DNA of 46,475 nt from Candidatus Cloacimonadota bacterium (lineage in GTDB: Bacteria; Cloacimonadota; Cloacimonadia; JGIOTU-2): NCBI GenBank assembly GCA_030611765.1, contig JAUWPE010000004.1, forward strand, positions 1-46,475, in the 5' to 3' direction. The notes under the pieces were generated by a model. The model saw only the letters and a list, made by a program, of their open reading frames with translations. It searched no databases and had not been told where the DNA came from. Shown here piece after piece: positions 7,484 through 43,290 of this stretch. Every line of letters begins with the position of its first letter. Position 1 is the stretch's first letter. A program made the translations under genes and the position numbers.

Positions 7484-7502
7484 CAGAAATACTATTCAAT
7501 GT

Positions 7503-8073
7503 GTTCCCAAACGGGGGTTTGGGAACAAGACTTCTTATGGGTTTGGGAACAAGTACATTTTTGGTGGTTTGGGAATAAGAGCATTTTTGGTGGTTTGGTT
7601 AACAAGTACATTTTTTGTTTTTGGGGAGGTTAATAGCTCTCTCGTTCCAAAGACCATATAATTTCTCGCTCCAAAGACCATATAATTTCTCGTCCCAAAC
7701 CCGATGTCGGCTCCTCGTTCCCAAACCCGATGTCGGCTCCTCTTTCCCAAACCCGATGTCAGCTCCTCGTTCCCAAACCCCTGTTTGGGAACAAATACAT
7801 TTTTGGTGGTTTGGTTAACAAGTACATTTTTTGTTTTTGGGGAGGTTAATAGCTCTCTCGTTCCCAAGATTAGTAACTTTCTCGTTCCCAAACCCGATGT
7901 CAGCTCCTCGTTCCCAAACCCCTGTTTGGGAACAAATACATTTTTGGTGGTTTGGGAATAAGAGCATTTTTTGTTTTTTGGGGGATTAATAGCTATCTCG
8001 TTCCAAAGACCATATAATTTCTCGTTCCCAAACCAGATGTCGGCTCCTCGTTCCCAAACCCCTGTTTGGGAAC
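7503..8073. repeat. REP/BIME-like array of 24-26 nt units with several full palindromes (GTTCCCAAACCCCTGTTTGGGAAC)
   Basis: Full palindromes at 7503-7526, 7769-7792, 7910-7933 and 8050-8073. Between them are half-site units CTCGTTCCCAAACCCGATGTCGGCTC, CTCGTTCCAAAGACCATATAATTT and a repeated ACAAGTACATTTTTTGTTTTTGGGGAGGTTAATAGCTCTCTCGTTCC segment. Confidence 0.9.
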
Positions 8074-8086
8074 GCTATTATCTATA

Positions 8087-8626
8087 CTATAACTCAAGTT
8101 CATCAATCTTAAAAGGATTATTTTTTCCAGCAAAATTTCGTGCGCTGGAATAATACCAGTCCTCTGGTTCGGCAACAAATCCTCTCTTTACCGGATTGAA
8201 ATGAATGTAATCAATCTTCTGGCGTAACATATTCGTGGAACAAATCAATTTGGGGTAACTCCCCTCCTGCCAGAATTGATAAGTCGAATTTCTTTTATAT
8301 GACTTCTTTAGCATTTTCAATGAATCCAAAATATCATTTTTTTTATCTTCCTCCAGTAATAAAATTATCTCTTTGGCTGTATAACCTTTTATATTCTGAA
8401 TAATTATTTCAATATCCGTTGGATGTGATGCGATCATGTGGAGATGATGATCCATTATTACATAATAAAATATTTTCAAACCCTTTTCATTTCTATAAAA
8501 ATTGAAATTTTCGATGATTATATCACAATATCTTGGATCTGTAAAAAACTTTATTTTTCCTACAACAATCCATGTAATAAAATATAAGTGATCTTGAACC
8601 TCAGAAAATTTATATCTACTTCTCAT
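8087..8626 (-). mobile_element. REP-associated tyrosine transposase (RAYT / TnpA_REP, Y1 HUH superfamily)
   Basis: MRSRYKF...YFITWIVVGKIKFF...GLKIFYYVIMDHHLHMIASHP (HUH motif)...QFWQEGSYPKLICSTNMLRQKIDYIHFNPVKRGFVAEPEDWYYSSARNF (catalytic-Tyr region and typical RAYT C-terminus). Confidence 0.9.
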
Positions 8627-8638
8627 GATTTGCTTGTG

Positions 8639-8662
8639 TTCCCAAGCAGGGGCTTGGGAATG
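8639..8662. repeat. REP-like palindrome immediately upstream of the RAYT gene
   Basis: GTTCCCAAGCAGGGGCTTGGGAAT-type palindrome 13 nt upstream of the RAYT start; counterpart of the one at 8050-8073 just beyond the RAYT stop. Confidence 0.8.
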
Positions 8663-8697
8663 ATATCCAACAACTTTCTATTTATCGTCATCATAAA

Positions 8698-19422: not shown

Positions 19423-19446
19423 GATCTTTATTTATATCTACTTTGC

Positions 19447-19551
19447 GTTCCCAAAGAAGGAACAGTTAAATTTGCCCGCCCTGTGTAATTGCTTTGCACC
19501 ACTTCGTGGATTACACAGGGCAAGCATTTAACGTCCTAAAGCTTTGGGAAC
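19447..19551. repeat. Long nested inverted repeat sharing REP-like ends (GTTCCCAAAG...CTTTGGGAAC)
   Basis: Arms GTTCCCAAAG 19447-19456 / CTTTGGGAAC 19542-19551; GTTAAAT 19465-19471 / ATTTAAC 19526-19532; CCCTGTGTAAT 19479-19489 / ATTACACAGGG 19510-19520; inner CAC/GTG. Confidence 0.85.
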
Positions 19552-19563
19552 GAGAGATTGTAA

Positions 19564-30137: not shown

Positions 30138-30196
30138 CTAATAACAAATAAAATGTCAAAGTATTTTTTTCTTCATCTTCTTTATTTTTTCGATTG

Positions 30197-30264
30197 CCCC
30201 ACTTTGCCGTCTCATTCCCAATCCCCACTTTGCAGTCTCATTCCCAATCCCCAGATTGGGAATG
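30197..30264. repeat. REP-like mini-array: 2 x CCCCACTTTGCnGTCTCATTCCCAAT (26 nt) capped by palindrome CATTCCCAATCCCCAGATTGGGAATG
   Basis: Units 30197-30222 and 30223-30248; palindrome 30239-30264. Confidence 0.85.
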
Positions 30265-30393
30265 TCATCATCTTTTGATAAATCTCTAATACATTAATTT
30301 TGAGAAAGTTAGAATGTAGTTTCATAGGAGAATAGTGCTGATCAGCTATCTTCATAAATCTAAAATCGCTAATCATCATTCATCAATTGTTGC

Positions 30394-30492
30394 GTTCCCA
30401 AACAGGGGTTTAGGAACGAGAAGACTGAAAGGTTTAGGAACGAGAAGACTGAAAGTTTTTGGAACGAGAAGACTGAAAGGTTTGGGAATGCA
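30394..30492. repeat. REP-like mini-array: palindrome GTTCCCAAACAGGGGTTTAGGAAC followed by 3 x 24-nt AAGACTGAAAGGTTTnGGAACGAG units
   Basis: Palindrome 30394-30417; units 30421-30444, 30445-30468, 30469-30492. Confidence 0.88.
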
Positions 30493-30588
30493 TATTATCA
30501 TTTTTAACGAAATCACCAATCTCTTCATTTTATTTTTTTCGCTTGCACCGTTGAATCTCTTTTAATTTATCATTTGAAATTTCATTAG

Positions 30589-43067: not shown

Positions 43068-43290
43068 GCATTCTGAACTCCAATCTGTCAAGACTCGAGC
43101 TCAGGGGAGCGTAGCGAAACTGGACTTGAGACGACAACTGTCAGCATTCTGAACTCCGCCCACCTTCGGCGTGTGAAGTCCAGTCTGCTGAGACTGGAGT
43201 TGAGACGAAAAAGCTTGACGCATTCTGAACTCCGCCCACCTTCGGCGTGTGAAGTCCAGTCTGCTTTAAGGCTGGGATTAAACAATGGCG
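43068..43290. repeat. 76-bp tandem repeat, about 2.7 copies
   Basis: GCATTCTGAACTC starts at 43068, 43144 and 43220. 46-nt identical block GCATTCTGAACTCCGCCCACCTTCGGCGTGTGAAGTCCAGTCTGCT at 43144-43189 and 43220-43265; contains CCAGTCT-gctg-AGACTGG. Confidence 0.85.

Follow-up and report, generated by a model that had tools for sequence, protein, structure and literature searches.

Introduction

The position of RAYT genes between inverted REPs, the co-evolution of the two and the occurrence of REP clusters beside RAYTs are already known (PMC2817692, PMC3116915). Binding by TnpA-REP is restricted to the tagged strand of a REP folded as single-stranded DNA, and only that strand is cut, near the hairpin, at C|T or, in one system, at C|A (PMC8266576). 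The poorly described TnpA-REP subclass 2.6 (Bertels group 5) has a median length of 179 aa, the motifs WQ and YIHxNP, and an SS tail motif (PMC6006769). Its members come mostly from Bacteroidetes and are flanked by "atypical" hairpins that lack GT[AG]G and have copies elsewhere in the genome (PMC6006769, Quentin et al. 2018).

The locus described here lies in a stretch of 46,475 nt from a Candidatus Cloacimonadota bacterium (the window), which is contig C167 of a 2.23-Mb genome in 189 contigs (G000). Its RAYT shares with subclass 2.6 the length of 179 aa, the WQ and SS motifs, and dispersed hairpins without GTAG; in place of the YIH[QN]NP and NH[LIV]H of that subclass, which are found in its relatives, it carries the variants YIHFNP and HHLH. 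By size, motifs and published description the protein appears to fit the subclass. The CTC/GAG tag of its REPs and the arrays of half-REPs are, in contrast, unreported in the text of PMC6006769. Like the REPtrons of Nunvar et al. 2010 (PMC2817692), the locus has a gene between inverted REPs, REP–RAYT co-evolution and dispersed REPs; the REPs of PMC2817692, however, have GT(A/G)G heads, whereas a CTC/GAG tag and half-REP arrays are found here. In Pseudomonas fluorescens SBW25 (Bertels and Rainey 2011, PMC3116915), tandem clusters also adjoin each RAYT and tandem arrays also occur elsewhere, but the units are whole REPs or REPINs with their flanks, spaced 70–180 bp, and not tag-side half-REPs of 24–27 nt. 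The GTAG/CGTC REP superfamilies (Di Nocera et al. 2013, PMC3733652) likewise consist of a short palindrome tagged at one end and form REP clusters with flanking DNA; both of their tags are missing here, and PMC3733652 does not use the words half, duplicat- or slippage. No description of CTC/GAG-tagged REPs or of half-REP ladders was found in the open-access papers searched, most subscription papers and supplementary tables lying outside the search, and a search with the raw motif gave only unrelated papers among the matches listed.

The RAYT gene and its locus

The open reading frame at 8087–8626 (reverse strand, 179 aa), between miaA and purH, was assigned as a RAYT/TnpA-REP gene with profile NF047646 (104.3 bits, cut-off 80). 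The Y1_Tnp profile scored 22.9 bits, slightly below its cut-off of 23, and the score of 21.4 bits with NF033573 (cut-off 55) places the protein outside the IS200/IS605 transposases. The motifs HHLH, WQ, YIHFNP and SS are present, and the residues of the HuH motif and the single catalytic tyrosine (H61, H63 and Y140) were invariant among 19 aligned relatives. The closest solved structure is TnpArep 4er8; the predicted fold is regarded as settled well enough by family, motifs and this solved relative.

The order miaA–RAYT–purH is kept in three congeners, with RAYT identities of 77–79%. The gene is vertically inherited at a fixed miaA–purH locus, which is old; the arrays at it are not fixed. The spacer between miaA and the RAYT measures 603 nt in the window, 216 nt in G005 and 202 nt in G006, and the number of array units varies as well. 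The orthologous RAYT of Ca. Cloacimonas sp. 4484_140 (G007:C123; loci L126 and L145) was matched only over residues 28–121 and seems truncated, and the surrounding arrays remain.

The RAYT model has 18 matches in G000 (on C35, C161, C52, C177, C119 and others), several of which adjoin quite different hairpins, such as GTGTCATGG at C35 and AACAAGATT at C119; this genome therefore seems to hold several RAYT–repeat systems at once.

The REP family and its tie to the RAYT

The REP is a 10-bp hairpin, GTTCCCAAxx-loop-xxTTGGGAAC, in which a one-sided CTC/GAG tag replaces GTAG. As its foot carries neither GT[AG]G nor CGTC, it falls outside the GTAG/CGTC superfamilies. The two palindromes that had initially been seen close to the RAYT ORF were confirmed. 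One REP (8047–8075, palindrome 8050–8073, reverse strand) lies 12–13 nt beyond the stop codon as CTC-GTTCCCAAAC-CCCT-GTTTGGGAAC-GC, with its CTC tag outward and its GC head facing the gene; the other (8635–8663, palindrome 8637–8660, forward strand) lies about 11–12 nt ahead of the start codon as TGTGTTCCCAAGC-AGGG-GCTTGGGAATGA, its TGTG head facing the gene.

The motif is not confined to the locus: the genome holds 39 exact copies of the half-site TTTGGGAACGAG, and GTTTGGGAACRA occurs 33 times, against none in the reversed control. Full hairpins were carried by 29 of the 99 genomes searched, and controls had none. Nor is the motif equally abundant where the RAYT is missing, since among the 60 nearest genomes, counted with relatedness ignored, those with a close RAYT (E ≤ 1e-30) had at least five hairpins in 7 of 11 cases, and those without one in 0 of 49. 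Of 94 sides of the RAYT genes of the clade, 75 had a hairpin no more than 130 nt away, compared with 3 of 414 random windows. The stem varies by RAYT clade (TTCCCAA, TTACCAA, TTAACAA, TTACAAA, TTACGAA and TATCCAA) and tracks the RAYT tree, with 7 changes versus 13–18 in 300 shuffles. Most clade members in other phyla (Geomonas, Sulfurimonas, Hydrogenedentota, Planctomycetes, Verrucomicrobia and methanotrophs) show the arrangement CTC-tagged REP, gene, GAG-tagged REP, with the tags mostly outward.

The flanking REPs are thus inverted, dispersed in the genome and co-evolving with the RAYT, as in REPtrons. The initial proposal of a RAYT with its own REP is borne out by the protein family, by the flanking hairpins in orthologues and in other phyla, by the co-variation of stem and RAYT and by the association in presence and absence; judged from these comparisons of sequence, the link holds and would be ordinary REPtron biology.

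Organisation of the array

Four full hairpins (7503–7526, 7769–7792, 7910–7933 and 8050–8073) and many half-sites separate miaA from the RAYT, as had been described at the outset. With at most one mismatch, TTYGGGAAYRAG was matched 23 times in the window against 2.3 expected, a number reached in 0 of 100 shuffles. The TRF periods in the array were 24, 26 and 140 nt, and the folding of the 601-nt block as single-stranded DNA gave z = -11.

The block from about 7500 to 8076 is an inverted-REP element, with a head-outward REP at each end and half-sites running inward from both sides; its half-REP units (7503–8075) are 24–26 nt long. At its left end stands a full REP (7503–7529, hairpin 7503–7526, forward strand), TGTG head outward and AAG tag inward, followed on the same strand by tag-half units GTTTGGGAACAAG and GTTTGGGAATAAG and a decayed GTTTGGTTAACAAG (7541–7606, period 26–27). 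Tag-half units of the CTCGTTCCAAA and CTCGTTCCCAAAC types follow in reverse orientation (7641–7765, periods 24 and 26). The next full hairpin (7766–7795, hairpin 7769–7792, reverse strand) ends in CTC on one side and in AACAAA on the other, as though a right-type end had been fused to a left-type end. From 7740 to 8073 extends an unstranded higher-order tandem repeat of 140 nt (2.4 copies at 90%), each copy of which has one full hairpin and half-sites; the hairpin of its second copy is at 7907–7936 (hairpin 7910–7933, reverse strand).

The initial picture of the array was correct in its half-sites and palindromes and had to be amended. The half-sites are oriented both ways, those on the left reading GGGAACAAG and those on the right CTCGTTCCC. 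Although four palindromes do punctuate the array, three of them are due to the 140-nt repeat. The segments between half-sites, which had been called variable, are largely identical within a run, and are therefore tandem duplications and not random spacers. A constant segment that alternates regularly with a variable one, every 24–26 nt, could also suggest a CRISPR-like array or another structured RNA locus. Such a reading is hardly credible and a CRISPR array was rejected because the spacers within runs are identical; moreover, the constant part measures only about 13 nt, both orientations occur in one block, the neighbours are miaA and purH with no cas genes seen there, and an Rfam search gave no match.

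The same kind of half-REP array occurs at 30190–30490 of the window, in a second composite element (unstranded) that comprises two arrays, with 26-nt and 24-nt units, and is dispersed in the genome. This element of about 300 bp (window 30180–30520) is also found on G000 contigs C75, C113, C150, C181, C39 and others, with three consecutive copies on C75; several contig ends fall inside it, so that it breaks the assembly. Two further repeats were seen. At 43119–43265 a 76-nt unit with palindromic parts stands twice in tandem, its sequence unrelated to the REP. At 19441–19554, and on G000 contigs C18, C131 and C177, REP loops harbour a further palindrome of greater length (GGAACAGTTAAAT ... ATTTAACGTCC around CCCTGTGTAAT/ATTACACAGGG), which gives the impression that another repeat was inserted there.

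Polarity and breakpoints of the half-REP duplications

The array unit is not a whole REP, and consists of the tag-bearing half: hairpin apex, arm, tag and 2–12 nt of flank. Among 131 tandem GTTCCCAA pairs, mostly of period 24–27, the second copy came after CT(C/T) 113 times and never after the GC head. At loci that had not been selected for arrays (RAYT loci and the window; the hairpins of one array are not independent), a tag-half copy stood on the tag side of 21 of 59 tagged REPs and on the head side of 1 of 59, while other hairpins had such copies on 5 of 142 sides. Copies of full hairpin after full hairpin were absent from 120 pairs at periods 18–36, and the order at the analysed loci was either full-then-half (Fh, Fhh, Fhhhhh) or half only. 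Neither the polarity nor the scarcity of half-copies at other hairpins is expected from generic slippage at hairpins, and the absence of full copies also speaks against it.

Even so, the arrays might be minisatellites that arose at stable hairpins, through replication slippage or template switching; in that case the RAYT would spread REPs and have no part in the half-site arrays. This we judge unlikely, though it is the main competitor. In its favour, junction microhomology in two-copy cases was mostly 0–2 nt, often AA as in the stem; the larger tandem repeats of 140 and 76 nt share the window; and a close RAYT was undetected in some array-bearing genomes. The 37 exact duplications all had their start in the loop or upper stem, none of them within the first six far-arm bases, and terminated 2–12 nt beyond the tag; 17 of the 37 started exactly after xTTCCC. 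The breakpoint is at the loop in Cloacimonadota and after xTTCCC in the others, a difference that counts against the RAYT mechanism favoured below. A universal breakpoint rule, CCC|AA, was rejected because the duplications of Cloacimonadota begin at the loop.

A scan of named genomes gave at least 116 stretches of tandem tag-halves in many phyla; the counts per phylum are lower bounds and were not converted to rates. Arrays of the window's REP type adjoin RAYTs in G000, G006, G007, G008, G073 and G082. A second REP type, TTACCAA, forms arrays of this kind too. They lie on 11 contigs from 8 genomes, and on four of these contigs (G000:C161, G012:C14, G015:C255 and G016:C108) the cognate RAYT is adjacent. 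Among 38 array-bearing genomes, the RAYT profile matched nothing in 5 and only distant sequences in 14, which limits the claim of a RAYT link. MAGs lose repeat-flanked genes, and this may bear on array-rich genomes without a RAYT. One MAG, of Desulfatirhabdium (G099; L176 and other contigs), has very many half-REP duplications, but its match to the RAYT profile is very weak; the explanation is either loss of the gene in assembly or survival of the repeats beyond their RAYT.

In the RAYT-flanking arrays of four species, half-sites differed at 17% of positions and spacers, still recognisably homologous, at 44%. The same comparison in arrays found by exact match was set aside as ascertainment-biased, to which the RAYT-flanking set is less subject. 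This difference, and the persistence of arrays at the locus in congeners, would agree with selection of the half-sites as binding, decoy or autoregulatory sites of the RAYT beside its gene, their origin being incidental. Such selection is nevertheless improbable as the main explanation: the same arrays occur in many places far from RAYT genes, a lone half-site is incapable of forming the hairpin, and homogenisation by unequal exchange could equally keep half-sites alike.

Proposed mechanism

The explanation that we favour, and consider probable with a good deal of room for doubt, is a REPtron of the subclass 2.6 type between inverted cognate REPs, in which the tag half is duplicated through cutting by the RAYT and ladders arise by unequal exchange. 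The RAYT would bind the folded single-stranded, tagged hairpin and cut a few nucleotides past the tag. The tag half would then be duplicated as the DNA is rejoined or copied again at the upper stem or apex, and unequal exchange would extend the copies to ladders of 24–27 nt and to repeats of 140 nt. The arrays that adjoin RAYTs would be side products of RAYT activity at the site and may have been retained as binding sites. The tag-polar duplication of half-REPs is probably RAYT-linked, with an enzymology that we infer from the sequence patterns.

The description of the array as a RAYT-generated satellite, with which the analysis began, stands in so far as the tag-side unit, its strong polarity and the frequent position of arrays beside RAYTs fit RAYT processing. 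It does not stand as a full account, since replication slippage could give the same product and much of the window's 570 bp is simple tandem amplification of the 140-nt repeat. A stronger version is put forward tentatively, with rather less than an even chance: RAYTs of this clade would process the tagged hairpin at two sites, one just beyond the tag and one in the apex or upper stem; the tag half so released would be re-inserted or re-copied in tandem, making the ladders direct RAYT products clade-wide across phyla.

Conclusions

On the question of how RAYTs spread REPs, cutting has been shown in vitro, but its genomic products have been hard to recognise. A polar duplication of half-hairpins, nearly confined to the tagged side, offers a specific product that can be searched for. 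The repeats of this subclass have been described only as "atypical"; a candidate substrate can now be defined for it, GTTCCCAAGC-loop-GCTTGGGAAC-GAG, together with cognate enzymes. The natural stem variants TTCCCAA, TTACCAA, TTAACAA and TTACGAA, each with its own RAYTs, provide a ready set for studies of specificity. Tandem copies of the tag half are met with in many bacterial phyla and may be the trace that REP multiplication by RAYTs leaves behind; if the ladders are indeed direct RAYT products, they would reveal the outline of REP amplification.
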